The notes under the pieces were generated by a model. The model saw nothing but the letters and a program-made list of their open reading frames with translations. It did not search any database and had not been told where the DNA came from. From Acidobacteriota bacterium (lineage in GTDB: Bacteria; Acidobacteriota; Terriglobia; Acidiferrales; UBA7541), in NCBI GenBank assembly GCA_003224235.1, contig QHYU01000164.1:1-33932 (forward strand): a stretch of 33,932 bases of DNA, in the 5' to 3' direction. Below are positions 74 through 31,855 of this stretch, one piece after another (the stretch's first letter is position 1; each line of letters opens with the position of its first letter). The translations under genes and the position numbers were made by a program.

Positions 74-92
74 GGTTGAGCTGCGCGCCCCC

Positions 93-324
93 GCTCACCT
101 GGTTCGAGTAGAAGTCGGAGAGGGTGGGGGAATACCTGCAATATGGAGGTATGCCGAGGTCCGGCGACGGAGCTGTTTGTTCGTCCGCATGGGACTTGCG
201 CTCGGCCTTCTGGTACGCTTCTGCGCCCGTCAAGACAGTCCCTGGGTGGCGAAAAGAAAAAATAGAAGAGATACTCTACCAAGCTATTGCCCGAGCCCGC
301 GAAAGCGTGCATCTGCGCATCTAG
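93..324. repeat. Degenerate second copy of an internal piece of the membrane-protein gene at 1303-2493
   Basis: This 232 bp segment matches 1711-1944 in the same orientation with seven substitutions and one 2-bp deletion (a CC pair lost near 228), about 97% identity by eye. In the intact gene the segment encodes residues ~184-261. Here there is no start, the deletion shifts the frame, and nothing else of the gene is attached, so it is a dead fragment. Its right edge coincides with the end of the sigma-factor gene: the CTAG at 321-324 belongs to the repeat and supplies that gene's stop codon. Confidence 0.9.
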
Positions 325-989
325 TAGACTGAATTCCTGCCTGAGAAGTCGGCGAGCTCGCTCCGCCGAAAATACTTTGTCAATGCTTGGCGCAGCTTTT
401 GCCGGCCGCGAAGCGCTCGGGACTTCACGGCGGCAATCGACAGCCCCAACATCCTTGCCGTTTCCTCGGTCGAGTGCTCCTCTACTTCCCGGAGACGTAG
501 AACCTCCCTGAAGGTCATTGGAAGCTCACCCATCGCCTAAGCGAGAATGCGCTGAAGCTCCTCTTGCGAGTAGCGTTGTTCGGGAGTCGGAGTGTTGTCT
601 GCGACTTCAGCGCAGAAAGGAGTATCTCCGGTGGTAGCGGGACCGTCGAAGTGCAACTCGCGCAATCGGCGCGCGCGCAGTTTCATGAGCGATTGGTTGA
701 TCGCAATGCGCGCGAGCCAGGTATAAAAGCGGGAGTCTCCACGAAATGTGTCCATGTGCAGGAAAGCCTGTGCAAAAGAATCCTGAGAAACGTCCTCGGC
801 ATCCTCGCGGTTCCGGGTAATCTTTTGCGCGAGCCGGAAAATGCGCGGGCCGTATCTTGTCACGAGCTCTTTGAAAGCTTCCGGGTCGCGTCTCCTGGCA
901 GCGTCCAGGAGCGCGGCGTCGGGTTCCTGCGAGTTCAACACTGCGACGTTCGCCCTCAATGTGCTCGCTTCATTCATAACAATAGACAT
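321..989 (-). pseudogene. ECF sigma-70 factor interrupted by an in-frame TAG codon
   Basis: An RNA polymerase sigma factor of the extracytoplasmic-function type, which would direct transcription from a dedicated promoter class. The first 150 codons carry region 2 (about residues 35-105, with NREDAEDVSQDSFAQAF and WLARIAINQ). Codon 151 is TAG (537-539). The same frame then continues without a gap through region 4 (ARMLGLSIAAVKSR, RGRQKLRQAL) to a stop at 321-323, giving 222 codons before it, a normal ECF length. One C-to-T change from CAG would explain the amber codon. The start at 989 has GGAGG six bases upstream. No anti-sigma gene is adjacent. The last residues and the stop come from the junction with the duplicated fragment at 93-324, so the native C-terminus may be altered. 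It could be a recent pseudogene, a read-through gene, or a sequencing or assembly error. Confidence 0.85.
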
Positions 990-1071
990 CAGGTGCCTCC
1001 GTCATGTGTGCGCTATTCACTCCCTGTCTTGCTCCGGTGTCGATGGTCATTTTTCTGCGTTCTTCAAGCAT
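970..1071 (-). CDS. Possible 33-residue leader ORF overlapping the sigma-factor start
   Basis: An AAGGAG Shine-Dalgarno sequence followed by ATG opens a 33-codon frame beginning MLEERRKMT. It runs into the sigma gene in another frame and ends at 970-972, so its stop lies inside the first codons of the sigma factor. Such an overlap could couple translation of the two. The Shine-Dalgarno and the first nine codons lie in the duplicated block and recur at 5192-5278, after which the two peptides differ completely. The peptide has no recognisable domain. Whether it is translated cannot be told from sequence alone. Confidence 0.35.
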   Translation of the reverse strand: MLEERRKMTIDTGARQGVNSAHMTEAPDVYCYE

Positions 1072-1234
1072 CTGGTCTCCTTCCACACCAGAGAATAGTG
1101 CACTGCGCCTGCCAAAGACGCGTTCTAACTGAGACCGCGGCAACTGATTGAAGACAGAAGAGCTTTGCTTTGTGAGACTGCGATTCCTGGTTCGACACTT
1201 CTCTCGACAAGTGTCGAGCGTCTACGACACTTGA
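1046..1234. repeat. Promoter-type direct repeat, left copy (upstream of the sigma factor)
   Basis: This 189 bp block matches 5253-5457 with four substitutions and one 16-bp gap (about 98% identity outside the gap). Read on the minus strand it contains, in order, an array of CGACACTT half-sites, a spacer of about 90 bp, a possible promoter region, a Shine-Dalgarno AAGGAG and the start of a short leader ORF. The left copy lacks 16 bp that in the right copy carry one more half-site. There are no terminal inverted repeats or transposase, so it is a duplicated regulatory region and not an insertion sequence. Confidence 0.9.
1193..1232. promoter_or_regulatory. Three-half-site operator-like array upstream of the sigma factor
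   Basis: CGACACTT at 1193-1200, its reverse complement AAGTGTCG at 1209-1216 and CGACACTT again at 1225-1232 lie exactly 16 bp apart, in alternating orientation. This makes two overlapping palindromes with 8-bp spacers. Regular spacing of about one and a half helix turns between dyads suggests a dimeric regulator binding cooperatively. The regulator is not identifiable in the window. Confidence 0.6.
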
Positions 1235-1270
1235 ACAGGCGTCACCGCTTACCAATAAGGCCACGGGTCT

Positions 1271-1284
1271 ATCGGATATCCGAT
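1271..1284. promoter_or_regulatory. Perfect 14-bp palindrome
   Basis: ATCGGATATCCGAT reads the same on both strands. It lies just downstream of the unknown membrane-protein gene and upstream of the sigma promoter block. It could be a protein binding site, but a single palindrome of this length may be chance. Confidence 0.2.
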
Positions 1285-1302
1285 CCGCAAACCAGCCATG
1301 GA

Positions 1303-2493
1303 TCATGATGCAGGGACGTAGACGACATCCGGAGTGGCAGGCTGAATGACGATCGGAGCCGAATGCACCTGGTGCAGCAGCTTCATGAATTCCGAACGCT
1401 GATTGGGTCCGAGGCTGACTCCAGCATAAGCGACCTGGATGATGGGTACGTTCTTGCGCTGCGGGTCCCGAAAAAAGGGAAAAGGAGTTGGGGCTCCCAC
1501 GGCCCAGAAGAAATCCGCCTGGGCCCCCCGAAGATCGTCGGGCAGATTAAAGTAGTTGATTGTCTCCTGGTCGAGTGGAACCTGCCCTTGCGCTTCAAAC
1601 ACATAGAACGTTAGTCCGCCCGATTCAACTTCCTCCATGGGGGCAAGATAGAATGGGCGGAACATACCGTCCACGCGCCCGGCCTCGGTCGGCCGGTAGA
1701 CCGCGCCCGCGCTCACCTGGTTCGAGTAGAAGTCGGAGAGGGTGGGGGAATACCTGCAATATAGAGGTATGCCGAGGTCCGGCGACGGAGCTGTTTGTTC
1801 GTCCGCATGGGACTTGGGCTGGGCCTTCTGGTACGCTTCTGCGCCCCCGTCAAGACAGTCCCTGGGTGGCGGAAAGAAAAAATAGAAGAGATAGTCTGCC
1901 AAGCTATTGCCCGAGCCCGCGAAAACGTGCATCTGCGCATCTAGGGACTCGGCGTCACGCCCCATGAACGGGTTGTTGGAGACGGCGACTTGCAACAAGG
2001 AATGAGTTCCGGCGTTCTCCACGACCACAATTTCCGAGAAACTCACCTGCGGGGCAGAGGCGGCCAGACTCGGCGGCGGCGGCAACCGGACCGGTTCGCG
2101 GGCCGCCCAATCGTCAGGAAGATCAATAAGAGTTCCGCTGGGCAGCGAGAAGCGATGGAGCGGCGGACTCTGGGAAGCGACTTCAAATGCTGCCGGAGCA
2201 AGTAGGAAAAGCCCAACCATCCCAAGTAGCAGCATCGAAACTGCTCTTCTTTTCCTATTCATTTGACTGGGTACCACTGTCCGCATCTTGGCACCCGCAA
2301 CGCCCGGATAAGCGATCATCGCCAAGATCCCGTTCCTTTCCGGGGCGACGCCGTTCGCGGGCTGAGATGGGTCCGCAACAAGACCGGAGGGAATGTCCGC
2401 AGCCTGTTCTGCTCTCCTGCGGAACTGGACCAAGACGTGGATGAGGAAAGCGACTCCCACGCCAGCGAATGCAACGAAGGTTACAGTTGTCAT
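1303..2493 (-). CDS. Unknown membrane-anchored protein, 396 aa
   Basis: I do not recognise the family. The ATG at 2493 is chosen because GGAGGAAGG lies just upstream and because the longer ORF start at 2532 would overlap the preceding gene. There is a hydrophobic segment at about residues 5-24 and a second at about 86-107, preceded by a basic stretch (MNRKRRA), followed by a soluble C-terminal part of roughly 290 residues that is probably outside the cytoplasm. The layout could reflect fusion of a small membrane peptide with a signal-anchored protein. It follows the VWFA-related gene by 19 bp and is probably co-transcribed with it. Codons ~184-261 are duplicated at 93-324. Confidence 0.7.
   Translation of the reverse strand: MTTVTFVAFAGVGVAFLIHVLVQFRRRAEQAADIPSGLVADPSQPANGVAPERNGILAMIAYPGVAGAKMRTVVPSQMNRKRRAVSMLLLGMVGLFLLAPAAFEVASQSPPLHRFSLPSGTLIDLPDDWAAREPVRLPPPPSLAASAPQVSFSEIVVVENAGTHSLLQVAVSNNPFMGRDAESLDAQMHVFAGSGNSLADYLFYFFFPPPRDCLDGGAEAYQKAQPKSHADEQTAPSPDLGIPLYCRYSPTLSDFYSNQVSAGAVYRPTEAGRVDGMFRPFYLAPMEEVESGGLTFYVFEAQGQVPLDQETINYFNLPDDLRGAQADFFWAVGAPTPFPFFRDPQRKNVPIIQVAYAGVSLGPNQRSEFMKLLHQVHSAPIVIQPATPDVVYVPAS
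1711..1944. repeat. Intact partner of the duplicated gene fragment at 93-324
   Basis: This internal 234 bp of the membrane-protein gene is the in-frame version of the repeat pair. The copy at 93-324 is 2 bp shorter and out of frame. Both copies have the same orientation and are about 1.6 kb apart. Confidence 0.9.
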
Positions 2494-2512
2494 GACCTGT
2501 CCTTCCTCCCGC

Positions 2513-3472
2513 CTACCGTCCGGCAGGAACATAGACTTGGTCGGCTGCTACAAGCTCAGCGTTTGGCACTTCGGTCTCCAGTTTGACCCGCTGGAAGCCG
2601 GCCTTCTTCTCAGCCTTGGCGAGGAACGTGAGCAGGTACTGGTGATTCAGTTTGTTCGTCAAGTCCTCCAGGTAAGGTGCGAAGGCGATCGGGGTTTGGA
2701 AGCCTTGGAAATAGGCCTCGCCGCCGGTCTGATCAGCGAGCCGCGAGAGGTTATTCTGTCCCCAGTTGAACCTCCAGAAGCTGTGCCCGAAATGACCCGC
2801 ACCAGTGGCGTAGATGGTATAGATGAGGATCCCTGCTCGTTGAGCATGCTCGATCGCCGAATCCACATATGGGTCAGACGGTCCGCCGTCGAACCGGTCG
2901 ATGCCATCGGAGACCATCAGAATCTCGTGGCGCGCCGGGCCTTCCGGCCAGCGTTTGATCAGGTCCACCAGGGAGAAGTAAGGGCTGGCCGACGCGCCGG
3001 GAGAGCCAAGGGGCAACCGAAGCGCCTTGGCCGCCAGGGCGTGGTCGGTGGTGAAGTTCTGAGCGATGTCCACGGTCCCGTTACGCATGTAGCCGACAGC
3101 AATAGCCGTGGTGACCGGCTGCGCGTTAATGAATTTACGAATATCCTCCAATTGCAAACCGAGACTGGTGTCGGATCCGTCGTCCAGCAAGAGGAACAGC
3201 TCCAGCCCGGCATGGTCCCCCCCGAGTGCAACCCAGTTAGTTACCTGAGCCCGGTCGTGACCTTGATGCACGTTCACATCCTCGCGGTGGATTACCGGAA
3301 TGTCTTTGCCATGACGAGCTTCGACCGTGACCACCATGTGCACCGGCACCCCAGCGGACGGAGTGGCCACCTGAGCTGACAGAGACGGCGCATTCAAACT
3401 GATCCCAGCCACCAGGGCGAGAACCGTTTGGATTGCGATGGAGTGGATCTTGATCTTGGTTACGAGAGCCAT
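2513..3472 (-). CDS. Secreted VWFA-related protein, 319 aa
   Basis: Resembles the VWFA-related domain proteins (TIGR03436 type) abundant in Acidobacteriota, which are exported proteins of unknown role with a von Willebrand A-like metal-binding fold. Residues 1-34 form a signal peptide ending ..NAPSLSAQ. The MIDAS-like strand LFLLLDDGSDTS lies near residues 92-103, a loosened form of DxSxS, and MVSDGID near 186-192 matches the later conserved aspartate. The ATG at 3472 is preferred over 3484 because GGAGG then lies five bases upstream. It is 40 bp behind the hydrolase gene and 19 bp ahead of the membrane-protein gene in a minus-strand run. Many family members are about 300-350 aa, so the length is normal. 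Confidence 0.85.
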   Translation of the reverse strand: MALVTKIKIHSIAIQTVLALVAGISLNAPSLSAQVATPSAGVPVHMVVTVEARHGKDIPVIHREDVNVHQGHDRAQVTNWVALGGDHAGLELFLLLDDGSDTSLGLQLEDIRKFINAQPVTTAIAVGYMRNGTVDIAQNFTTDHALAAKALRLPLGSPGASASPYFSLVDLIKRWPEGPARHEILMVSDGIDRFDGGPSDPYVDSAIEHAQRAGILIYTIYATGAGHFGHSFWRFNWGQNNLSRLADQTGGEAYFQGFQTPIAFAPYLEDLTNKLNHQYLLTFLAKAEKKAGFQRVKLETEVPNAELVAADQVYVPAGR

Positions 3473-3512
3473 GTTTGCCTCCATTTCGTCAAGAGGTTCG
3501 CGGGCATCTACA

Positions 3513-4817
3513 TCAGTTTCCGCTGATTACTCCCTTCGGCCGAGCGTTGGCTAGGCTTGGTGAGCCTGCGATTTCGGCGTGGTGCGCCAAAGCGGCAACG
3601 TGATCCTGCCCGCGCACTTCAGGCCCCTCGGGCAAATCCGCCGTCAGCGACGCTGCGTTCGATGGGCCCCCCGGGAACGCTCCTCTGAGAGCCGAGGCTG
3701 CTTCCTCGATGGCCGTCTTGCCGGCGTCCACTGCTCCGGCCATCAGCACGAACCCGTGGATCATCCCCGGATAGCAGGTCGCCTTTACTTGCACACCAGC
3801 CTCCTGGAGCCTCTTCGCATACTCTTCGCCTTCATCCCGCAGGGGATCCTGTTCGGCGGTGATCACCAGGGCAGGCGGCAGGTTTTTCAGGCTCTTTGCG
3901 AATAATGGGGAAATATAAGGGTCTTGCAGGTCATCCGTTGCAGTCAGGTAGTTGCCCAGTAGGGAGACCATGGCCTCTTTGGTGACGACCGGTCCACCCA
4001 CTTCCCTCCAAGAGCGACAGCTCATGGTCGCGTCGGTGTTGGGATAGATCAAAACCTGATAAGCGAGGGCTGGGCCAGTCCGGTCCCGAGCCATCAGGGC
4101 AACCACGGCGGCCAGGTTGCCGCCTGCGCCGTCACCTCCAACAGCAAGGCGCTTGGCGTTGCCGCCAATTTCCGCTGCGTGCTGGGCCACCCACTTGGTC
4201 GCCGCGTAGGCGTCTTCCGGAGCTGCCGGAAACCGGTGCTCCGGAGCCAGGCGGTAGGCCACGGAAACGATGATGCAACCCGTTCGGTTGGCCAGCGCGC
4301 GAAGCAGAGTGTCGTGCGTGTTGAGGTCGCCGGTTGTGAATCCTCCCCCGTGGAAGTAAACCAAGACGGGCAAATCGTTAGCGGCGCGGGGGGTATAGAC
4401 TCGAATGGTGATCCTTCCTGCAGGCCCGGGAATTTGGCGGTCCTCCACCTTGAAGATATCTTCTGGAGCGCCAGCAAACTGTAGAAGGGAAAGGTAAGCC
4501 TTACGAGCTTCTGCGGCGGTTGTCGGATTGAGCGTGACGGAAGCAGCTATCTTGTCAAGCACCGCCTGGGCTTGTGGATCCAGTTGTTCCTTCACTCTGT
4601 TTTCCTGTCCCGGAACCTGTGGTGTGGTTGGCACGTCGCCCGGAATCTGTTCGGAAGACTGCAGGGCCCACAGTGACGCGCGCCGCGGAGTAATCTCCTC
4701 TTTGCCAGACGCACTGCGCGCCTTTTGGGCTCCTTGCGCAAGGAAAACCATCATCAAAGCGAGCCACACTGCCGTTTGAACTGGACTATGAGTCTTACCC
4801 ACGATCCTTTGGAACAT
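3513..4817 (-). CDS. Exported alpha/beta hydrolase (HSL family) lacking the nucleophile serine
   Basis: An Abhydrolase_3 / hormone-sensitive-lipase-type protein of 434 residues. The start at 4817 has AAAGGAG seven bases upstream; the longer reading frame to 5066 would swallow the small gene next door. A signal peptide covers about residues 1-36. Family motifs are the oxyanion-hole HGGGF (156-160), VAYRLAPEHRFPAA (186-199), an acid at D324 in EQDPLRDEG, and H354 in MIHGF. The nucleophile motif, normally GDSAGG, reads GDGAGG at 228-233, with a GGC glycine codon at 4128-4130 where AGC serine is expected. If the read is correct, ester hydrolysis by the usual mechanism is not possible, and the protein may be a binding or pseudo-enzyme. 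The C-terminus is some 60-70 residues longer than in typical members. Confidence 0.9.
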   Translation of the reverse strand: MFQRIVGKTHSPVQTAVWLALMMVFLAQGAQKARSASGKEEITPRRASLWALQSSEQIPGDVPTTPQVPGQENRVKEQLDPQAQAVLDKIAASVTLNPTTAAEARKAYLSLLQFAGAPEDIFKVEDRQIPGPAGRITIRVYTPRAANDLPVLVYFHGGGFTTGDLNTHDTLLRALANRTGCIIVSVAYRLAPEHRFPAAPEDAYAATKWVAQHAAEIGGNAKRLAVGGDGAGGNLAAVVALMARDRTGPALAYQVLIYPNTDATMSCRSWREVGGPVVTKEAMVSLLGNYLTATDDLQDPYISPLFAKSLKNLPPALVITAEQDPLRDEGEEYAKRLQEAGVQVKATCYPGMIHGFVLMAGAVDAGKTAIEEAASALRGAFPGGPSNAASLTADLPEGPEVRGQDHVAALAHHAEIAGSPSLANARPKGVISGN

Positions 4818-4858
4818 ACAGAACTCCTTTCCCGCCGTAGTGCAAAGCCTGCGTGGCT

Positions 4859-5041
4859 TTAGAATCCCATCGTGCCCAGCATTTGCGTTCCATCGCGCCC
4901 GTCTCCTAAATCCCTGAACCTGTTCTCCCTGTGCCAGCGCCAAAAAAGCAAACCAACAGCCAAGAAAGGTGCAAAGACGCCCAAGGCCACGAGCAGCAGA
5001 ATCGGAATCAACATTAAAAATCCGATTAGAATCCCAGTCAT
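4859..5041 (-). CDS. Small membrane protein, 60 aa
   Basis: A short ORF with a strong Shine-Dalgarno (GGAGAGGA, about six bases before the ATG). It encodes a long hydrophobic stretch at residues ~3-36 (likely one or two membrane-spanning helices), then a charged tail with WRWHRENRFRDLGDGRDG. It ends 41 bp before the hydrolase start and is read in the same direction, so it probably belongs to the same transcript. I recognise no family. The combination of ribosome binding site, hydrophobic profile and operon position makes it more likely real than a chance ORF. Confidence 0.55.
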   Translation of the reverse strand: MTGILIGFLMLIPILLLVALGVFAPFLAVGLLFWRWHRENRFRDLGDGRDGTQMLGTMGF

Positions 5042-5084
5042 CTTCGGGTCCTCTCCTCCCAGCCACTAGGGGTTGTCATACGTC

Positions 5085-5183
5085 CTATCCGATGCGCGTG
5101 GTGGATTGCGCTTTTGCCACAGACGCAAGCGCTCCCAGGCCCGTGATGGCAATCAACAAAGGGAGAACCGGGAACCACTTCAT
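5085..5183 (-). CDS. Possible 32-residue secreted or membrane peptide
   Basis: A 33-codon frame from ATG at 5183 to TAG at 5085-5087. The peptide begins MKWFPVLPLLIAITG and continues to an AKA-Q junction like a signal-peptidase site, leaving only about seven residues behind it. It follows the leader ORF at 5192-5278 by 8 bp and precedes the 60-aa membrane protein by 43 bp. The Shine-Dalgarno is weak, so it may depend on coupling with the leader ORF. It could be a leftover signal-peptide start of a lost gene. Confidence 0.35.
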   Translation of the reverse strand: MKWFPVLPLLIAITGLGALASVAKAQSTTRIG

Positions 5184-5191
5184 GTGAATAG

Positions 5192-5278
5192 CTAGAATTT
5201 CCGTCTTGCCATTTGAGGATGGCCGTAGCAATAAGCCAGAGACAGACCAAAAGTCATTTTTCTGCGTTCTTCAAGCAT
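5192..5278 (-). CDS. Possible 28-residue leader ORF in the duplicated promoter block
   Basis: The same AAGGAG-ATG start and first codons (MLEERRKMT) as the ORF at 970-1071, but a different continuation ending ..QMARRKF. The first part lies within the repeat, and the rest is unique. It is the first ORF behind the right-hand promoter block. A role as a leader peptide or a remnant of a duplicated gene start is possible. No domain is visible. Confidence 0.3.
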   Translation of the reverse strand: MLEERRKMTFGLSLAYCYGHPQMARRKF

Positions 5279-5457
5279 CTGGTCTCCTTCCCCACCAGAG
5301 AATAGGGCACTTCGCCTGCCAAAGACGCGTTCTAACCGAGACCGCGGCAACTGATTGAAGACAGAAGAGCTTTGCTTTGTGAGACTGCGATTCCTGGAAG
5401 AGAGTGTCGGGATTTCGACACTTCTCTCGACAAGTGTCGAGCGTCTACGACACTTGA
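5253..5457. repeat. Promoter-type direct repeat, right copy (upstream of the hydrolase operon)
   Basis: This 205 bp block is nearly identical to 1046-1234 and is 16 bp longer. It sits between the end of the metallophosphoesterase gene (5470) and the small ORFs that precede the hydrolase, so it would drive the run hydrolase - VWFA protein - membrane protein. Sharing this block with the sigma-factor gene suggests that both units obey the same regulator. Confidence 0.9.
5402..5455. promoter_or_regulatory. Four-half-site operator-like array upstream of the hydrolase operon
   Basis: GAGTGTCG at 5402-5409, CGACACTT at 5416-5423, AAGTGTCG at 5432-5439 and CGACACTT at 5448-5455 alternate in orientation with start-to-start steps of 14, 16 and 16 bp. 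The first half-site is missing from the left copy. The array is about 130 bp upstream of the first Shine-Dalgarno, so it may be an activator or upstream repressor array. Confidence 0.6.
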
Positions 5458-5469
5458 GTGGGTTACCAG

Positions 5470-6582
5470 CTAGGATTCGAAATAAATCAGGACGAGTTCC
5501 GGGGCTGCGCCAAGACGCATAGGCGGACCCCAAGTGCCGGTGCCGCTAGTGGTGTAGACCAGGAGACGGCCCAGCCGTTTCAACCCATACACGAACGGTC
5601 CGTAGATGCGAGAGGTGATCCAGGTCCAAGGGAAGAACTGACCCCGGTGCGTGTGCCCGGAAAGCTGCAGGGATATGCCTTCCTCTTCCGCGATCCGCAG
5701 CTGCTCGGGAGCATGCGCCAGCAGAATGCTAGGGCGCTTGGGGTCGAGCGAAGCCTTGCGCAGAATGGAGCGGAAGGTCTCGGGATGAACAAGAGCGCCA
5801 TGGTGCACACCGACCAGGTCCAAGCCATCAAGGGATACCTTTTCGTTGTCTAGTACGCGAATACCGGACGCCCGAACCGCGTCGAAGTATTTTGAGTGGC
5901 CAGAGAATTCTTCGTGATTTCCTGCAACGAAAAACGCGCCGAGGGGTGGTGCCAGGTGCACCCAAGGCTTGGCCACCCTTTCGAGGTTCGCGGACGTTCC
6001 GTCAAATAGATCACCGGTAATGAAGACCACGTCGGGTCGAAGGCGCAAAAGCATGTGGACGATGCGCTGCATGAAACCGCGGCCCCGGACGTGTCCAAGG
6101 TGCACGTCGCTGACCAGGGCTGCCACTCGGCCCCGCCAAGATTCCGGGAGGTTCGGAAGCTTCACGGAGATTCGTCTCACGCGAACCCGAAGGGCATTGA
6201 TGATGGCGTACGCGCTAGCACACGCGGCGAGGCTAAAAAGCAAAAGCGCGATCGTTTGTTTGTGAAACGGGAGGCCAAGAAGCACTGTCGCAGCACGCGT
6301 AAGCCAGGATAAGGACGCTGCCAGGAAGAAAAAGCTCAGCATCCCAAGCCAGACGGCAGAGATCGTGTAGAAGATTCGAATCAGCATATTCGAGTAACGG
6401 AACGCAAGCAGAGAAGTGATGACAAAACTGACCGAAAGCAAGACCAGAATGATCTTCGCCGCCGATACGCCTGGCGCGTTTGCAGCTCCCGTGAAACTCA
6501 TCCAAGTGGCGTAGACAAACCAGTGCACAGCAAGAAGAATCGCCTGAATGACGCTGATGAATATCGCAATACGCGCACGCAT
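5470..6582 (-). CDS. Membrane-anchored calcineurin-like metallophosphoesterase, 370 aa
   Basis: A YaeI/YkuE-like metallophosphoesterase: a two-metal phosphohydrolase domain behind a membrane domain. The first ~130 residues contain about four hydrophobic helices. The catalytic domain then shows DVHLGH (D159, H161), GDLFDG (D191), GNHE (N222, H223), LAHAP (H290) and SGHTHRGQ (H310, H312), so all metal ligands are in place. Family members act on phosphate esters such as lipid-derived substrates in the envelope, but the substrate cannot be read from sequence. The Shine-Dalgarno is weak (GAGG about nine bases upstream). It stands alone, upstream of the duplicated promoter block and in the same direction. 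Confidence 0.9.
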   Translation of the reverse strand: MRARIAIFISVIQAILLAVHWFVYATWMSFTGAANAPGVSAAKIILVLLSVSFVITSLLAFRYSNMLIRIFYTISAVWLGMLSFFFLAASLSWLTRAATVLLGLPFHKQTIALLLFSLAACASAYAIINALRVRVRRISVKLPNLPESWRGRVAALVSDVHLGHVRGRGFMQRIVHMLLRLRPDVVFITGDLFDGTSANLERVAKPWVHLAPPLGAFFVAGNHEEFSGHSKYFDAVRASGIRVLDNEKVSLDGLDLVGVHHGALVHPETFRSILRKASLDPKRPSILLAHAPEQLRIAEEEGISLQLSGHTHRGQFFPWTWITSRIYGPFVYGLKRLGRLLVYTTSGTGTWGPPMRLGAAPELVLIYFES

Positions 6583-9326: not shown

Positions 9327-9378
9327 GTTTAGTCTCCTCGGAGCGTGGCCGGGACCATTTCGGCGGCGGCCTCAGGCC

Positions 9379-10167
9379 TTAGCTGCGTGTGCGCAGGCGA
9401 TACCACACCAGGATCAGGCCAACTGAGGCCAGGAAAATGATCGTCGAAACGGCATTGATTTCCGGGGTCAAGCCGCGGCGCAAGCGTCCCCAGATTTCCA
9501 GCGGCAAGGTGTTGTCCCGTCCGATCAGAAAAAAACTCACCGCGATCTCGTCCATCGAGAGGGTGAAGATCAGCAGCCCCGCGGCCACCAGCGGCAACCG
9601 CAGGTTTGGCAAGGTTACGCGCCAGAACGTTCTCCAGTAGCTCGCCCCCAGATCGAGCGAGGCTTCCTCCTGTGCCCGGTCCATCTTCTGCAAGCCGGCG
9701 GAGATTTCCGTGGTGCCCACGGAGATCAGGGCGGTCCCGTGGCCGATGATGACGGTGAGCAGACTCAATTTCATGCCCGCGAACACCGCCAGCATCAACA
9801 GGGAGAGCCCGGTGATAATCCCCGGCAGGATGAGCGGCAGCAGAACCAGCCGTCGGAACAGCGCCTTGCCTGGAAACGCCACGCGGTCGAGCGCCAGAGC
9901 CGCTGGCAGGCCGAGCGCTAGGGCGATCGCGACCGCGGCCAAGGCTACGAGCAGGCTGTTGACCACGGCGTCCAAGATTGCCCCGTCGCTCGCCAGCATC
10001 CGGTACCAATCGAGCGTGAGATGGCGGGGTGGGAACCCGCCAACGCCTTCGCGATTGAACGAATACAAGATCAACACCACGATGGGCAAGTAGAGGAATG
10101 CAAACACACCAGCCGCGTAGGTCGCCAGCCACCCGAATCGGCGCCGAACGGAACTCTGCCCACTCAC
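9379..10167 (-). CDS. potC: Polyamine ABC transporter permease, PotC type
   Basis: A second inner-membrane permease of a spermidine/putrescine-type importer, 262 residues with six predicted helices, the family's usual length. The cytoplasmic coupling motif is EEASLDLGASYWRTFWRVTL, with the EAA-loop pattern. A GTG start at 10167 is chosen because it overlaps the stop of the PotB-like gene as GTGA; a GTG at 10179 is in frame too. The longer reading frame to 10236 adds sequence without membrane character. It ends 52 bp before the amine-oxidase-like gene and acts with PotA, PotB and PotD. Confidence 0.9.
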   Translation of the reverse strand: MSGQSSVRRRFGWLATYAAGVFAFLYLPIVVLILYSFNREGVGGFPPRHLTLDWYRMLASDGAILDAVVNSLLVALAAVAIALALGLPAALALDRVAFPGKALFRRLVLLPLILPGIITGLSLLMLAVFAGMKLSLLTVIIGHGTALISVGTTEISAGLQKMDRAQEEASLDLGASYWRTFWRVTLPNLRLPLVAAGLLIFTLSMDEIAVSFFLIGRDNTLPLEIWGRLRRGLTPEINAVSTIIFLASVGLILVWYRLRTRS

Positions 10168-11009
10168 GTGAAGGTCCACTTTTTCTCGGTTCGCTCCACC
10201 GCAAACAGCATGCCCAAGACCAGGAGCATGATGCAAACAGAGATGGCCGCCCCCAGCGGCCAGTCGAACGCCGCGCCAAACAGGCTGACCACTATGTTGG
10301 AGATCATGATGCCGCTTGCTCCCCCAACCAGCAGCGGCGCAAGGAAATCTCCGAGCGTCAGCACAAAGGCAAATGTAGCACCGGCCAGCAACCCGGGTAG
10401 TGAGAGGGGAAAGATTACTCGCCAGAACGTCACCCGCGGCGAAGCGCCCAGGTCCTGAGAAGCCTCGACCAAATGCCGAGGAATGTGTTCAAGCGAGGCG
10501 TAAATGGGGAGGAGTGTGAACGGCGTATAGATATGTGTCAGCACGAGTACTACGGCAAATGGACTATAAAGGAAGAATCCCACAGGCTCGCGAACCAGGT
10601 GGAGATACTGGAGGAAGCCGTTCAGGACGCCGTCGCTGCCGAGAATGGTTTTCCACGCGTAGCCGCGCACGAGGTAGCTGACCCAAAGCGGAACGATCAC
10701 CAGTTGGTAGAGCAGGTCCTTCCGCGCCCCAGCGTGGAATGACAGGTAGTAGGCCAACGGATAGCCCAGGACCAAGGCAAGCATCGTGACAGCACCGGCG
10801 ATTTTCATCGATCGGAATAGCACCTGCAAGTACATCCAGTTCCGCCCGAGGTCGCGATAATTTTCGAGGTTCCACTGCCGCATGATCGTGCCCGAGGATA
10901 CAGTCCAAAAGCTATAGCTGAGCAACAGGGCATACGGGACTAGTAAGAACAGCGTTACCCACAACAGCGGCGGAATTGCGACGGCCAATTTATACGCTCG
11001 CGAATACAC
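10164..11009 (-). CDS. potB: Polyamine ABC transporter permease, PotB type
   Basis: The first permease of the importer, 281 residues with six predicted helices starting near residue 10 (LLWVTLFLLVPYALLLSYSF). The EAA loop reads EASQDLGASPRVTFWRVIFP. The start is the GTG at 11009, which has GAGGAG seven to eight bases upstream (inside the end of the PotA-like gene) and lies 2 bp behind that gene's stop. The longer frame to 11309 runs antisense-like through PotA and is not plausible. The stop overlaps the PotC-like start by 4 bp, which indicates translational coupling. Confidence 0.9.
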   Translation of the reverse strand: MYSRAYKLAVAIPPLLWVTLFLLVPYALLLSYSFWTVSSGTIMRQWNLENYRDLGRNWMYLQVLFRSMKIAGAVTMLALVLGYPLAYYLSFHAGARKDLLYQLVIVPLWVSYLVRGYAWKTILGSDGVLNGFLQYLHLVREPVGFFLYSPFAVVLVLTHIYTPFTLLPIYASLEHIPRHLVEASQDLGASPRVTFWRVIFPLSLPGLLAGATFAFVLTLGDFLAPLLVGGASGIMISNIVVSLFGAAFDWPLGAAISVCIMLLVLGMLFAVERTEKKWTFT

Positions 11010-11011
11010 GC

Positions 11012-12136
11012 TCAGCTCTCCTCTGCGTCGTGCAGCCGCACTGCGTCGCTCGCCGAAAAAGCGAATGCGCATTGCCCCTCGAGGATCCTGCGGCTCGGAG
11101 TCCGCACCTGGAGCACGCGGCCGTCCGCACAGGAGATCTCGATCAGGTCGGTATCGCCGCAGAAGGTCTGCTGCCCGATGGTCGCCAAGAATCGTACGGT
11201 TTGTTGGTCGTCCGGGTCCGCCGGTGAAACGAGTCGGATGTGCTCCGGTCGCAACGAGAAAGTGGCCGGCCCGGGGCGGCCTTCGCACGGCCAGGAGAAG
11301 GCGCCCCATCGCGCCACGCCGTCCACAACCTCGGCGCGTAACAAGTTGGTCTGTCCGACGAACTGCGCGGTGTAGGCCGTCGACGGGCGGTTATAGATTT
11401 CGCGCGGCGCAGCGATCTGCTCGAGCTCTCCGGCCCGCAGCAGCGCGATGCGGTCGGAAAGAGCCATCGCTTCGTCCTGGTCGTGCGTCACGAACAGAAA
11501 CGTGATGCCGACCTCGCGCTGGAGCATCTTCAGCTCCCACTGCATCTGCCGTCGCAGGTTTGCGTCCAGTGCCGACAGCGGCTCATCGAGCAGCAGCAGC
11601 AGCGGCCGGTTCACCAGGGCGCGCGCCAGTGCGACCCGTTGCTGCTGCCCGCCGCTCAATTTCGACGGAGCCGCGCCGGCATACGCGCTCATCTTGACCA
11701 TGGCGAGGGCCTGCTCAACCCGTTGGGCAATCTCGGCTTTCGCCACACCTTGCGCGCGCAACCCATACGCGACGTTTTCGAAGACGGATAGATGCGGAAA
11801 GAGCGCATAGTGCTGGAAAACAGTGTTAACCTGCCGGCGATGGGGAGGCAGCCGGTCCAACCGCTCGCCCCCCATCCAGATCTCTCCCGTGTCCGGCCGC
11901 TCGAAGCCGGCGATCAGCCGCAGCAGCGTAGTCTTCCCGGAACCGCTCTCCCCCAGAATGGTCAGGAACTCTCCCGGCGCGACATCGAGTGAGACGTCGC
12001 GCAGCACCGTGCGGGGCCCGAAGCTCTTGGCAACCGAGCGAATCTGAAGCAGTGGCTCGCCGGCAGCCGCCTTCTCCGGCGCCTTCGGGGCTTCTTGAGG
12101 TTGGGTCAAGTGCGTGTCCCGGTTCTGGATTGACAC
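11012..12136 (-). CDS. potA: Polyamine ABC transporter ATPase, PotA type
   Basis: The ATP-hydrolysing subunit of the importer, 374 residues. Walker A is GESGSGKTT (62-70), Q-loop Q108, signature LSGGQQQR (160-167), Walker B LLLLLDEP (179-186) and H-loop H218. A C-terminal TOBE-type regulatory domain begins around residue 290 (SLRPEHIRLV). All catalytic motifs are intact. The GTG start at 12136 is 22 bp behind the PotD-like gene. The residues before about 28 (QPQEAPKAPEKAAAG) form a flexible extension. Family relatives import spermidine, putrescine, opines or aminophosphonates, so the polyamine call leans on the neighbours. Confidence 0.92.
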   Translation of the reverse strand: MSIQNRDTHLTQPQEAPKAPEKAAAGEPLLQIRSVAKSFGPRTVLRDVSLDVAPGEFLTILGESGSGKTTLLRLIAGFERPDTGEIWMGGERLDRLPPHRRQVNTVFQHYALFPHLSVFENVAYGLRAQGVAKAEIAQRVEQALAMVKMSAYAGAAPSKLSGGQQQRVALARALVNRPLLLLLDEPLSALDANLRRQMQWELKMLQREVGITFLFVTHDQDEAMALSDRIALLRAGELEQIAAPREIYNRPSTAYTAQFVGQTNLLRAEVVDGVARWGAFSWPCEGRPGPATFSLRPEHIRLVSPADPDDQQTVRFLATIGQQTFCGDTDLIEISCADGRVLQVRTPSRRILEGQCAFAFSASDAVRLHDAEES

Positions 12137-12158
12137 CCCGCGGAATTTTGTCGGCCAG

Positions 12159-13220
12159 TTACTGCGCGGCCTTCACTTCGTTCCATATCTCGTTGTACTT
12201 ACCGCGCCGGGGCACGTGCCTCCAGAAGAAGATGCGCGCCATATAGGCATCGGGGTCATCGAGGTGTAGGTTCTTTTTCTCCTCCAAGGACATCTGCTGG
12301 GCAGCCAGGGGGTTCGCCGGGACGTAGCCGGTCACCTCGGTCACGAGCTCCTGCGTGCGCGCCTGGATCATGTACTCGAGGAAGGCGTGCGCGAGCTCCT
12401 TGTGCTCGCTTGCCGCAGTGATCATCAAGTGGTCGATCCAACCGGTGGTGCTTTCCCGTGGGATGATTTCGCCAATGGGAAAGTTGAGCTTGCGAAGCTG
12501 GTTGGTCATCAGCGGCCAGCCCATGGCCGCCACCACCTCGTGGTTCTGGAATAGGTTGGTGAGTTCGCCTCCGGTCGCCCAGATCTTTCGGATATTAGGC
12601 TTCAGCTCGAGCAGCTTCTGCTTGACACGAGCGAGCTGCTCATCGCTCAGGTTATATAGCGCGGCTGGATCGGGCTTGTCGTACCCCAGGACTTGCGCGG
12701 CCATGTAAACCGTCGAAAGGTCATCCCACACGGAGATCTTGCCCCGATATTTCGGATCCCAGAGCACGCTCCAGCTCTCCGGCGGCTTCGCAAAAAAAGT
12801 CGCGTCGTAGAGCAACGGGTTTGGCCCCCACATGAACGGTACGCCGTAGACTTTGTCGCCTGCGCGGACCAGTGGCAACGCGCGCAATTTCGGCGAAAGC
12901 TGCGGGTAAGATGGCAACTTCGAAGGGTCAAGTGGCGCGGCCAGGCCCGAGGTCGCAATCATTGTGGCCACATCGCTCGAAGGGGAAATGACATCGTAGT
13001 TCGAGGCGCTTCCCCCGCGAAGCTTGGCGACCAGTTCGTCGCTCGAGCCCATGTAGGACGCGACGATCTTGCAGCGGTGCGCCTCCTCGAATCCGCGCAC
13101 GAAGGACGGGTCGGCATATCCTTCCCACACCAGCAGGCTCAGCGTGGGAACCTGCCTGCGGCACGAATCTGTCGTCACCACCGCGAGGGCGATCAGGGCG
13201 ACAAGCACAGCTCGTTTCAT
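12159..13220 (-). CDS. potD: Extracellular polyamine-binding protein, PotD/PotF type
   Basis: The substrate-capturing protein of the importer, 353 residues. A signal sequence of about 20 residues ends in TTDSC; the cysteine (C20) could be lipidated, but the lipobox is not classical. The mature part has the family features LLVWEGYADPSFVRGFE, SNYDVISPSSD, VYGVPFMWGPNPLLYD (near 124-139) and SWSVLWDPKYRGKISVWDD. The usual start of such proteins in E. coli is near this length (about 350-370). Its ATG overlaps the stop of the amidohydrolase gene as ATGA. Ligand-contact residues cannot be assigned with certainty, so the exact amine is open. Confidence 0.88.
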   Translation of the reverse strand: MKRAVLVALIALAVVTTDSCRRQVPTLSLLVWEGYADPSFVRGFEEAHRCKIVASYMGSSDELVAKLRGGSASNYDVISPSSDVATMIATSGLAAPLDPSKLPSYPQLSPKLRALPLVRAGDKVYGVPFMWGPNPLLYDATFFAKPPESWSVLWDPKYRGKISVWDDLSTVYMAAQVLGYDKPDPAALYNLSDEQLARVKQKLLELKPNIRKIWATGGELTNLFQNHEVVAAMGWPLMTNQLRKLNFPIGEIIPRESTTGWIDHLMITAASEHKELAHAFLEYMIQARTQELVTEVTGYVPANPLAAQQMSLEEKKNLHLDDPDAYMARIFFWRHVPRRGKYNEIWNEVKAAQ

Positions 13221-14965
13221 CGGGTCGCCTCGGGCTGCGCGGCTCCGCGGCTAGCCCAGCAGGAAGCCTGATAGACTGTCTTCCCACCCACCATAGTCAA
13301 CAGGACTGTGGTCCGGCGGACGGCGTGGGGGTCGATTTCGAATAAATTCTGCGACACGATTACGAGGTCGGCGAGTTTACCCGGCTCGATCGATCCTTCG
13401 GTTTTCTCCCGTCGGCCGGCGATTGCCGCACCGAGAGTATACGCCTCGATGGCCTCGGCCATCCTGAGCCGCTGCTCGGGTACCCAGCCCCCTGGAGGGA
13501 GGCCTTGGACGTCTTGTCGTGTGACTGCATTTTGAAGTCCCGCCCAAGGGTTCAAGGTCACCACGGGCCAATCGCTTCCGAAGGCCAGCCGGCCTCCCCC
13601 GCTGGCCACGCTGCGCCAGGCAAACGCGCGTGTTTCGCGCTCCGGGCCAACGTTGCGCACCCAAACATTCAGCGTATCTTCGTCAGGATAGGCGTGCAAG
13701 GGCTGAAAGCTGGCGATGACGCCTAGCCGCCCGAAGCGTGAGATGTCCGCCGAGCTAATCGTTTCGATATGCTCGATGCGCGGGCGGGCGTCACGGCTGC
13801 CGTTGGCCTGAGGTGCCTGTTCATAGGCGTCCAGGGCCAAGCGCACGGCCGCGTCGCCAATGGCGTGCGTGAAAATCTGAAAACCGCGGCGGTTCAGCTC
13901 CGCCACAGACTGCTTATACTTGTCAGCCTCCCAAAACATCTTTCCGCTTACGCTGCGGTCGTCAGCGTAGGGCGCCAGCATCGCCGCCGTGTGCGACTCG
14001 ACGACGCCGTCGAGCATCGTCTTGACAGCTCCGGCCGAGAGCCACTCGTCGTTGAACCGGCGACGGGCTTCTTCAATGGTTTCGATCGTTTCCGGCTTGA
14101 GGGCTGGCGGATTCAGGAAGTAGGCGATGTACATGCGCACGGTGAGCGCTCCGCCGCCCCGGAGTTCGTCGTAGAGTTCGAACTCTTCAAAGTCTCCGCC
14201 GGCGCTGTGCACGCGGACCAGCCCGTTGCGATTGGCCTCAGCTATCCCTTGCTGTAAGGCTGCCAGCTTCTCGGCGCGCGTCGGCTTCGGCACAACACGC
14301 TCGATTAATTCGGAAGCCGCTTCCTTGAGCGCGCCCGTCGGCTCGCCGGTCTCCGAGTCGCGCACGATCTGGCCATTCGGCGGATCCGGCGTGTCGCGAG
14401 TGATGCCAGCCTTCGCCAGCGCGCGGCTATTCGCCCAGTAGGTGTGACCGTCAAAGCCCTCGAGCAGCGCGGGACGATCCGCCAAGATCTCGTCAAGGAA
14501 TTTCTTGTGCGGCAGCGCCGCCTGTCCAAAGACCGGGTAGGTCCACCCGCGACCCAGTATCCACCCCCTGCCAGGATGAGAAGCGGCATAGTCTTTGACC
14601 CGCTGCTGGATTTCGGCCACGGTACGCGCGCCCTCCAGGTTCACCTGGCCGAGGGCAAGCGAGCCGGAAAGGAAATGGATGTGGCAATCGGTGAAGCCCG
14701 GCAGCACCAGGTGCCCGCGCGCGTCGATCACCCGCGTCCCCCGCCCTCGAAACCGCTCGATCTCTCGGTTGCTTCCGACAGCCACGATTTTGTCGCCGCG
14801 GATGGCCAACGCTTCTGCCCACGGCTTTTGTGCGTTGACAGTGTAGACTTTGCCGTGGACGATGATGGTGTCTGCTGGCGCGCTCTTTGGCTTGGGAACT
14901 GCCGCGGAAGCCGCGCCCAGCGAAAAAAGGCACCCGATCACCAGCGCTCTTCGCCAATCTGACAT
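13217..14965 (-). CDS. Secreted amidohydrolase, YtcJ/Amidohydro_3 family, 582 aa
   Basis: A metal-dependent amidohydrolase. A signal peptide covers residues 1-22. The first metal motif is DCHIHFLSG (H95, H97). Later ligands appear in FTHAIGDAA, in PRIEHIETIS and in LAFGSDWPVV (the catalytic aspartate). The C-terminal composite domain ends in GKLADLVIVSQNLF and TVLLTMVGGKTVY. Known relatives hydrolyse N-substituted formamides or amides, but specificities vary widely. GGGAG precedes the ATG by eight bases. The gene follows the regulator by 58 bp and its stop overlaps the PotD-like start by 4 bp, so it is the first enzyme of the transport operon. A natural guess is that it frees the amine from an amide before uptake; this is an inference. 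Confidence 0.88.
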   Translation of the reverse strand: MSDWRRALVIGCLFSLGAASAAVPKPKSAPADTIIVHGKVYTVNAQKPWAEALAIRGDKIVAVGSNREIERFRGRGTRVIDARGHLVLPGFTDCHIHFLSGSLALGQVNLEGARTVAEIQQRVKDYAASHPGRGWILGRGWTYPVFGQAALPHKKFLDEILADRPALLEGFDGHTYWANSRALAKAGITRDTPDPPNGQIVRDSETGEPTGALKEAASELIERVVPKPTRAEKLAALQQGIAEANRNGLVRVHSAGGDFEEFELYDELRGGGALTVRMYIAYFLNPPALKPETIETIEEARRRFNDEWLSAGAVKTMLDGVVESHTAAMLAPYADDRSVSGKMFWEADKYKQSVAELNRRGFQIFTHAIGDAAVRLALDAYEQAPQANGSRDARPRIEHIETISSADISRFGRLGVIASFQPLHAYPDEDTLNVWVRNVGPERETRAFAWRSVASGGGRLAFGSDWPVVTLNPWAGLQNAVTRQDVQGLPPGGWVPEQRLRMAEAIEAYTLGAAIAGRREKTEGSIEPGKLADLVIVSQNLFEIDPHAVRRTTVLLTMVGGKTVYQASCWASRGAAQPEATR

Positions 14966-15023
14966 CGACGATCTCCCAGGGCTGCTTGGGCGGAAGTGAG
15001 AGTTCGACGAGCGACACCAACGC

Positions 15024-15866
15024 CTAGAAGGTAGGCGGCGTGTTCACCCACAGCAGCCACGTTTCTCTCCGCCCCGGATTCTGCCAGCGATGAGGCGTGC
15101 TACTTTCAAAGTAGAAGCTGTCACCCGGCCGGAGCCTGTAGCTCTCCTCCTCGTTGAGCCGAATCTGAAGCTGGCCGCGCAGAATATAGAGAAATTCCTC
15201 GCCGTCGTGCGCGTAGGCCTCGCCGCTGCCCGCGCCGGGGGCGATGCGGAATAAGTGCGGCTCCATCGCGGTATTGCCCCAGGCGAGCAACTCCATGCGC
15301 ACGCCCGGCCCGGTTTCCAGCACTTTGCGATTGCCGGGACGCACCAGGCGCGGGTTTTCGGCGGAGGGATCAAACAGCGCGAGGATGCTGGTGCTGTAGA
15401 AGCCGGCCAGCCGACGCAGGGTGGCAACTGACGCGCTCATTTGGCCGCGTTCGAGCGCGCTTAGGAAGCCGACCGAAAGGTCGGTGGCCCGGGCAACAGC
15501 CGCGAGCGAGACGCCGCGACTTCTCCGCAGGCGCCGCAATTGCGGTCCTAACAAGCGGGCCGGGGCCGGCGTCGTCCTTCGCATCCTCCCCTGACGTTTT
15601 AACAGGTGGATTATGGCGGCAGGATTCAAGCCGCGGACACGCCGCCAGAAGTACGCGCGCTTGAGCAGCTGCACGTCCTGCTGCGTATATAGCCGATAGC
15701 GGCTCCTACTGCGCTGAGGTTGAATCAGCCCCAGCGCTTCCCACGAGCGCAGCGCCGAGGAAGATATCCCCACCATCCGGGCGACCTCGCCGATGCGCAG
15801 ATAGCCGCCCACGCCCAAACGGCGTGGGGTCGCCCGCGGCAAACTCTTTCCGCTTGACAGGGGCAT
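15024..15866 (-). CDS. MerR-XRE-cupin three-domain transcriptional regulator, 280 aa
   Basis: A likely amine-responsive regulator of the flanking operons. Residues ~21-95 form a MerR-type winged helix (YLRIGEVARMVGISSSALR, SWEALGLIQPQR). Residues ~109-165 form a lambda-repressor-type HTH (LRRLRRSRGVSLAAVARATD, LSVGFLSALERG). Residues ~195-275 form a cupin sensor (AHDGEEFLYILRGQLQIRL, RPGDSFYFESSTPHRWQNPG). The XRE-cupin half has the layout of PuuR, which controls putrescine use in E. coli. It is the first gene of the minus-strand operon, 16 bp behind the predicted promoter -10 region's start site, and lies back to back with the receptor gene. No strong Shine-Dalgarno is seen, so the transcript may have a very short leader or a later start. 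Confidence 0.9.
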   Translation of the reverse strand: MPLSSGKSLPRATPRRLGVGGYLRIGEVARMVGISSSALRSWEALGLIQPQRSRSRYRLYTQQDVQLLKRAYFWRRVRGLNPAAIIHLLKRQGRMRRTTPAPARLLGPQLRRLRRSRGVSLAAVARATDLSVGFLSALERGQMSASVATLRRLAGFYSTSILALFDPSAENPRLVRPGNRKVLETGPGVRMELLAWGNTAMEPHLFRIAPGAGSGEAYAHDGEEFLYILRGQLQIRLNEEESYRLRPGDSFYFESSTPHRWQNPGRRETWLLWVNTPPTF

Positions 15867-30505: not shown

Positions 30506-31855
30506 ATGAGATCAGGCAAGACGCCTGTGGTGCTGATGGGAAAGTTGTTTCTGTGCCTTTGGGCCCTGGTTGCATGCGCCCAGGAGCTGCACTGGGATAA
30601 GTCTATGGCTGCTGCCGGAAAGGCTCGTCAGGAAGGCCGCTACTCCGAGGCTGAGAGACTGTTTATAGACGCAATCAAAGAAGTGGAGGGATTCGGACCC
30701 GGAGACCCACGCTTGCCCGCTAGTTTAAACAGCCTGGCAGAACTCTATCGTACGCGCAGCAAGTATGCAGAGGCTGAGGCGCTCTATAAGCGGGCGCTGG
30801 CGATCCGGGAGAAAACCTTGGGGCCAGACCACCCCGAGGTGGCCACGAGCCTAAACAACCTTGCGCTTCTCTACCACGACGAGCGCAAGAATGCCGAAGC
30901 CGAAGCGCTCTACAAGCGGGCGCTCGCGATCCGGGAGAAAACCTTGGGCACAGACCACCTCGAGGTAGCCTCGAGCCTGAACAACCTTCCGGTTCTTTAC
31001 CACGAAGAGCGCAAGAATGCCGAGGCCGAACCCCTTGACAAGCGGGCGCTAGTGATCTGGGAGAAAACCTTGGGGGCAGACCACCCCCAGGTAGCCACGA
31101 GCCTGCACAACCTTGCGGTTGTCTACCACGACGAGCGCAACTATGCCGAGGCCGAGCCGCTCTACCGGCGGGCGCTCGCGATCTGGGAGAAAGCTGGAGG
31201 GATGGAGAACCCGGAGGCAGCCGCCACTCTTAACAGCTTAGGGGAGCTTTACCGCACTCAGGGCAAATATGCCGAGGCCGAGCCGCTCTACAGGCGGGCA
31301 CTGGCGATCTGGGAGAAAGCTGGGGGGCCGGAGAATCCGGAGGCGGCTGCCACTCTTGGCAGCTTGGGGGAGCTTTACCGCACCCAGGGCAAATATGCCG
31401 AGGCCGAGCCGCTCTACAGGCGGGCACTGGCGATCTGGGAGAAAGCTGGGGGGCCGGAGAACCCGGAGGCGGCCGCCGCTCTTACTAGTTTGGGGGAGCT
31501 TTACCGCACCCAGGGCAAGTATGCCGAGGCCGAGCCGCTTTTCAAGCGAGCGCTGGCAGTCAAGGAAAAGAGCCTCGGGCCGGAACACCTCGACGTGGCC
31601 ATAAGTCTGAGCAACTTGGCGCTGCTCTACAATTATGAGGGCAAGTACTCCGAGGCAGAGCCCCTCTACAAGAGAGTGGTGGCGATCCGGGAGAAGAACC
31701 TGGGCCCAGAACACCCGGACGTGGCGCAGTCTCTGGATGCTTACGCCGCGCTGCTTCGCCAGGCAGGCCAAAAAGCTGACGCAGAGAAAATGGAAGCCCG
31801 GGCAAGGAAGATCCGAGCCAAGCGCCCGCGAGAACCAGGACGAGACTTGCATTAA
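30506..31855 (+). CDS. Exported TPR-repeat protein of the kinesin-light-chain type, 449 aa
   Basis: A protein-interaction scaffold. A signal peptide spans about residues 1-26 (LFLCLWALVACAQ). From about residue 35 to 435 it is a solenoid of 42-residue TPR_10/TPR_12 repeats with the pattern NLALLYxxxxKxAEAEPLYKRALAI, roughly nine to ten units. The central three are almost identical in sequence. The tail is basic (ARKIRAKRPREPG). Alone in its transcript, it converges on the cyclase gene; the 195 bp between them show no gene. Length is free to vary in such proteins because repeats expand and contract. Its partner is unknown. Confidence 0.9.
   Translation: MRSGKTPVVLMGKLFLCLWALVACAQELHWDKSMAAAGKARQEGRYSEAERLFIDAIKEVEGFGPGDPRLPASLNSLAELYRTRSKYAEAEALYKRALAIREKTLGPDHPEVATSLNNLALLYHDERKNAEAEALYKRALAIREKTLGTDHLEVASSLNNLPVLYHEERKNAEAEPLDKRALVIWEKTLGADHPQVATSLHNLAVVYHDERNYAEAEPLYRRALAIWEKAGGMENPEAAATLNSLGELYRTQGKYAEAEPLYRRALAIWEKAGGPENPEAAATLGSLGELYRTQGKYAEAEPLYRRALAIWEKAGGPENPEAAAALTSLGELYRTQGKYAEAEPLFKRALAVKEKSLGPEHLDVAISLSNLALLYNYEGKYSEAEPLYKRVVAIREKNLGPEHPDVAQSLDAYAALLRQAGQKADAEKMEARARKIRAKRPREPGRDLH
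31154..31531 (+). repeat. Three tandem 126-bp near-identical repeats inside the TPR gene
   Basis: Units at 31154-31279, 31280-31405 and 31406-31531 each begin GAGCCGCTCTAC and encode one 42-residue TPR unit. The second and third differ at only a few positions. Flanking units are clearly more diverged, which points to recent local amplification by unequal crossing-over or slippage. Confidence 0.9.

Follow-up and report, generated by a model that had tools for sequence, protein, structure and literature searches.

Comparison of the window (the whole stretch of DNA analysed, 33,932 nucleotides in length) with itself reveals two pairs of direct repeats (1046-1190 and 5253-5397; 1191-1234 and 5414-5457), which delimit a block present in two copies. 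In the pairwise alignment of 1046-1234 with 5253-5457, 185 of the 189 aligned bases are identical (97.9%), the differences being four mismatches in ungapped columns and a single 16-bp gap. Both copies have the same orientation and each is located closely 5' of a minus-strand gene. Self-comparison and alignment are thus in agreement with the preliminary description, which had reported two blocks about 98% identical except for a 16-bp gap, similarly oriented and 5' of an ECF sigma gene and of a hydrolase/VWFA/membrane-protein run. The genome-wide search for more copies that had been suggested at that stage was run on the complete assembly (4.57 Mb in 237 contigs, about 99% complete) and yielded these two copies and no others (E values of 3e-117 and 5e-79), so that their likeness is far beyond chance. 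The genes and features concerned are listed below.

5253-5457, minus strand: block copy A, located 5' of the small-membrane-protein/hydrolase/VWFA operon and comprising enhancer sites, sigma-54 promoter (both putative), Shine-Dalgarno sequence and the beginning of a short ORF
4859-5041, minus strand: 60-residue ORF without a Pfam match, judged by eye to be a membrane protein; the first complete gene that follows copy A
3513-4817, minus strand: alpha/beta hydrolase of the hormone-sensitive-lipase type (NF058653 LipP1, above cut-off)
2513-3484, minus strand: VWFA-type protein (weak match to the acidobacterial VWFA family TIGR03436, below cut-off)
1303-2532, minus strand: gene X, no family match; 6 of 60 relatives have homologues, at 38-48% identity
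1046-1234, minus strand: block copy B, located 5' of the ECF sigma gene, shorter than copy A by 16 bp and 97.9% identical to it
324-989, minus strand: ECF sigma gene, region 2 in 537-989 and region 4 in 330-536, with an in-frame TAG (537-539) between them
84-324, minus strand: frameshifted copy (about 96%) of an internal piece of gene X (1702-1944), directly downstream of the ECF gene

Copy A is flanked on one side by a metallophosphoesterase gene (5470-6582) and on the other by the membrane-protein/hydrolase/VWFA/gene X run, and 57 bases separate the end of copy B from the ATG of the ECF sigma gene (989). In the relatives that possess gene X, no VWFA, hydrolase or sigma homologues adjoin it; among viral contigs, it has one weak relative. 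The ECF gene is bracketed by recent copies, of the putative operon promoter on one side and of a piece of the last gene of the operon on the other. Both show a similar divergence of about 2-4%. The simplest explanation would be one local rearrangement, and to judge from these sequences it is likely that such an event put a copy of the block before the ECF gene. Two other regions of the window may be mentioned. Tandem units of 126 nt at 30633-31766 encode TPR-like repeats (ORF 30506-31855). The minus-strand genes at 9329-15866, to judge by eye, would encode a polyamine-type ABC transporter (ATPase, two permeases and substrate-binding protein), an amidohydrolase and a MerR/cupin-type regulator; they lie upstream of plus-strand transaminase and aldehyde dehydrogenase genes, and this is possibly an amine-use locus.

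Promoter and enhancer motifs of the block

Both copies contain the sequence TTGGCAGG-N5-TGC followed by a Shine-Dalgarno sequence and an ATG, and in both the spacing between the GG at -24 and the GC at -12 is exactly that of sigma-54 promoters (YTGGCAC-N5-TTGCW type). In copy A, read 5' to 3' on the minus strand, the order of the elements is TGTCGTAGACGCTCGACA, TGTCGAAATCCCGACA, a conserved spacer, TTGGCAGGCGAAGTGCC, GGAAGGAG and the ATG of a short ORF; the block reaches into approximately the first eight codons (MLEERRKM) of this ORF, which is preceded by a strong Shine-Dalgarno sequence. The elements are located as follows.

5435-5452, minus strand: putative enhancer site 1 of copy A, TGT-N12-ACA (TGTCGTAGACGCTCGACA)
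5405-5420, minus strand: putative enhancer site 2 of copy A, TGT-N10-ACA (TGTCGAAATCCCGACA), its centre 31 bp from that of site 1
1212-1229, minus strand: putative enhancer site 1 of copy B (N12)
1193-1197, minus strand: leftover half of enhancer site 2 of copy B, the other half missing through the 16-bp gap
5348-5358 (copy A) and 1141-1151 (copy B), minus strand: TCAA-N4-TTG between enhancer and promoter, a weak candidate for an IHF-like core
5306-5322, minus strand: -24/-12 element of sigma-54 type in copy A, TTGGCAGGCGAAGTGCC
1099-1115, minus strand: -24/-12 element of sigma-54 type in copy B, TTGGCAGGCGCAGTGCA
5284-5291 (copy A) and 1077-1084 (copy B), minus strand: Shine-Dalgarno sequence GGAAGGAG
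5192-5278, minus strand: short ORF MLEERRKMTFGLSLAYCYGHPQMARRKF, first after the promoter of copy A
970-1071, minus strand: short ORF MLEERRKMTIDTGARQGVNSAHMTEAPDVYCYE, first after the promoter of copy B, overlapping the start of the ECF gene

The specificity of these motifs was evaluated by pattern searches. Exact matches to YTGGCANGNNNNNTGC occur twice in the 34-kb window, where 0.33 are expected, and both are found in the blocks, on the gene strand and before the Shine-Dalgarno sequence. A pattern combining enhancer and promoter (with TGGCNNG) likewise retrieves two sites in this genome, both in the blocks, and none in the reversed control. Over the 399 genomes of the class, the same pattern is only about 2-fold above control, which means that most of its matches outside the true block homologues arise by chance and that it is unusable as a regulon list. 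Three further CGACANNTGTCG sites of the genome all lie inside coding ORFs and were taken as chance occurrences.

Inverted repeats of the form TGT-N10-12-ACA, located mostly 100-250 bp upstream, are the enhancer type of FhlA- and NifA-like activators, as described in a study of Clostridiales regulons (PMC6615313). The repeats of copy A (N12 and N10) and that of copy B (N12 only) have this form and lie within a range of roughly 80-250 bp upstream. The 16-bp gap in copy B takes away half of enhancer 2 and alters the position of enhancer 1 with respect to the promoter by about 1.5 helical turns, so that a weaker activation is predicted for this copy. Taken together, the motifs make it quite probable that the block constitutes an entire sigma-54 promoter along with binding sites for its activator, and that recent copying has left one such module in front of the ECF sigma gene and one in front of the neighbouring operon.

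Block homologues and candidate activators

A DNA search of the 399 genomes of the class identified block homologues in genomes G143, G321, G270 (at two places) and G043; blocks with full similarity are rare, being present in 4 of the 89 genomes of the family. In the alignment of seven blocks from five genomes, the two copies of the window included, the invariant columns take in the GGC and the TGC of the -24/-12 element, and the element of G043, TGGCACGACAGTTGC, differs little from the textbook consensus. Enhancer sites in pairs, their centres separated by 31-31.5 bp or about three helical turns, are found in copy A and in the blocks of G143, G321 and G043; the spacers are N12 and N11 in G043, and one site of the pair is imperfect in G143 and likewise in G321, whose promoter spacer is moreover one base short. 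The two G270 copies are without clear enhancers; these departures, like the rarity of fully similar blocks, speak against the promoter model. The likeness of blocks between genera goes past the known motifs, and for this the sigma-54 promoter model alone does not account. The block itself belongs to an ordinary class of element; what is unusual is its duplication and the sporadic presence, in other genera, of highly similar copies 5' of genes unrelated to each other.

The genes nearest downstream of the homologous blocks, which we infer from their position to be the targets, are diverse. In G143 (contig L025, around 5938-6103) and G321 (contig L027) the block precedes a multihaem cytochrome c/molybdopterin-iron-sulfur operon whose beginning resembles that of an alternative complex III operon, which it may be. 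The G270 blocks precede an OmpA-family gene and a BBP2-type porin gene, and the G043 block a short ORF encoding, by eye, a membrane peptide. Scanning the genome collection for the enhancer array retrieved 19 stretches, among which the block-like ones with a sigma-54 element after the array are only the three known from Acidobacteriota (that of G321 with its short spacer); the others had the look of chance matches or of an unrelated repeat, the latter confined to a single Melioribacteraceae draft genome. In that genome the same sequence of about 60 bp, with TGTCGTAGACTTCGACCATAGTCGAG and lacking a sigma-54 element, is present on four contigs (L064, L067, L073 and L082), as an unrelated dispersed repeat. 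A tentative reading of the distribution of the homologues, which we consider rather unlikely, is that in Acidobacteriota the block serves as a portable regulatory cassette. Copying of the whole unit, either locally or from genome to genome, with a likeness well past the motifs, would bring unrelated genes (ECF sigma gene, envelope operon, cytochrome/iron-sulfur operon and OmpA-type gene) under one FhlA-like activator.

The genome to which the window belongs (G000) contains one copy of rpoN (PF04552, E value of 1.3e-57) and 25 matches to the sigma-54 activator family PF00158, about 20 of them strong. At least five of these activators have an FhlA-like HTH, and for the one scanned against NCBIfam the best match is FhlA, below the equivalog cut-off. 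No enhancer sites were found near those activator genes of this genome that were fetched. In G043, an activator gene (L018:8399-9979) is located 2-3 kb from the block; its product contains GAF and AAA+ domains with a weak match to a Fis-type HTH, and its best NCBIfam match is again FhlA, with 550 bits but below the equivalog cut-off. This gene is divergent from an HlyD-type gene, and the stretch between them (L018:9980-10188) carries TGTCG sites and a sigma-54-like TTGGCATTCGCGGTGCC. By association, this linkage, seen in G043 only, suggests that an FhlA-like protein could be the reader of the TGTCG sites.

Control of the two units and alternative explanations

In the mechanism that we propose, sigma-54 RNA polymerase would bind the -24/-12 element, and an enhancer-binding protein of the FhlA/NifA type would bind the TGTCG...CGACA sites, whose centres are some 115-150 bp 5' of the predicted start. 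The bound activator would loop to the promoter and open it through ATP hydrolysis, and transcription would begin some 12 bases past the -12 element, near 5296 in copy A and 1089 in copy B (minus strand), running straight into the Shine-Dalgarno sequence and the short leader ORF. Through a recent local duplication, the ECF sigma gene would then have acquired a second copy of the promoter, which would make it answer to the same activator as the operon, in a cascade from sigma-54 to ECF sigma factor. Later, the sigma copy would have lost one enhancer and the sigma gene would have gained its in-frame stop, so that this branch is probably weakened or dead.

The fate of copy B is the point on which a second explanation, a real possibility although a somewhat doubtful one, departs from this mechanism. 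It shares the promoter reading and holds that the sigma-54 promoter is live before the operon only (copy A), copy B, the gene X fragment and the sigma gene being debris of the local duplication that form no working two-unit regulon. The loss of enhancer 2 from copy B through the 16-bp gap is in its favour, as are the frameshift in the adjoining gene X fragment and the TAG that precedes region 4 of the ECF gene at a position occupied by a sense codon in all 19 aligned ECF homologues; regions 2 and 4 are both recognisable, yet not in one uninterrupted frame. On the other hand, copy B retains the -24/-12 element, enhancer 1, the Shine-Dalgarno sequence and the leader ORF, region 4 is otherwise intact, reinitiation is possible at an ATG two codons past the TAG, and the TAG itself could be a sequencing error. 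A homologue of the ECF factor, with 56% identity, is encoded elsewhere in the same genome.

A block devoid of promoter function, be it a small repeat of mobile or palindromic kind (MITE or REP) or a terminator hairpin, is very unlikely. The enhancer region does fold as hairpins (z of -5.1), the block directly follows gene stops, and similar sequences precede unrelated genes in other genomes, but the genome contains just two copies and not the many of a MITE or REP element, a terminator scan found no T-run terminator at the hairpins of the block, an Rfam search assigned the block to no family, and the promoter elements are among the invariant columns of the alignment. Slighter still is the chance that the duplication is an artefact of draft assembly. 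The assembly comprises 237 contigs and the window, a complete contig, has its left end next to the second duplicated piece; nevertheless, the copies differ by about 2-4% plus indels and thus do not represent one locus assembled twice, the sequences at the junctions differ, and the sigma gene sits between the copies.

ECF sigma factors often autoregulate, and the preliminary description had taken the block common to the sigma gene and the operon as the sign of a small regulon under one factor, perhaps the sigma factor itself. The least credible of the alternatives is that both the sigma gene and the operon depend for their transcription on the ECF factor itself, acting at a promoter within the block, since the conserved promoter is of sigma-54 type, the ECF-type pair of -35 and -10 motifs searched for as a regular expression (GGAA[CT]-N14-18-GTC) has no match in either block, the ECF frame is interrupted before region 4, neither the enhancer array nor the sigma-54 element occurs 5' of any of 19 ECF homologues in relatives, and the block homologues of other genomes precede genes other than ECF sigma genes. 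The idea of a common regulator fares better than that of ECF self-control, the same enhancer half-sites and promoter being found before both units, which probably share a regulator that is not the ECF sigma factor.

Relation to known regulatory systems

Horizontal regulatory transfer and promoter replacement are known in bacteria. As in such transfer, unrelated genes of different genomes are preceded by promoter sequences that closely resemble each other, whereas one of the copies described here arose locally. In every sequence feature that could be examined, the block conforms to a sigma-54 promoter with an enhancer of the FhlA/NifA type. With the FhlA/NifA-type sigma-54 promoters (PMC6615313) the block shares the enhancer half-sites and their spacers, the pairing of sites and the distance to the -24/-12 element, as well as, in G043, a nearby activator with GAF, AAA+ and FhlA-like HTH domains; it differs from them by the extended half-site (TGTCG) and by its downstream genes, which are of envelope type, respiratory, or encode an ECF sigma factor. 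A sigma-54 promoter before an ECF sigma gene also has a counterpart in hrpL of Pseudomonas syringae, which is under HrpRS/sigma-54 control (PMC5263251). Compared with hrpL, the locus studied here has the same module also before a neighbouring operon, through a recent duplication, and an ECF gene with an in-frame stop.

A limited literature search found no described sigma-54 regulon in Acidobacteriota. The present analysis replaces the guess of ECF autoregulation by a specific and testable sigma-54 circuit in this phylum, in which the duplication is recent enough to show a sigma factor gene that would have been wired into, and perhaps then out of, a sigma-54 cascade.
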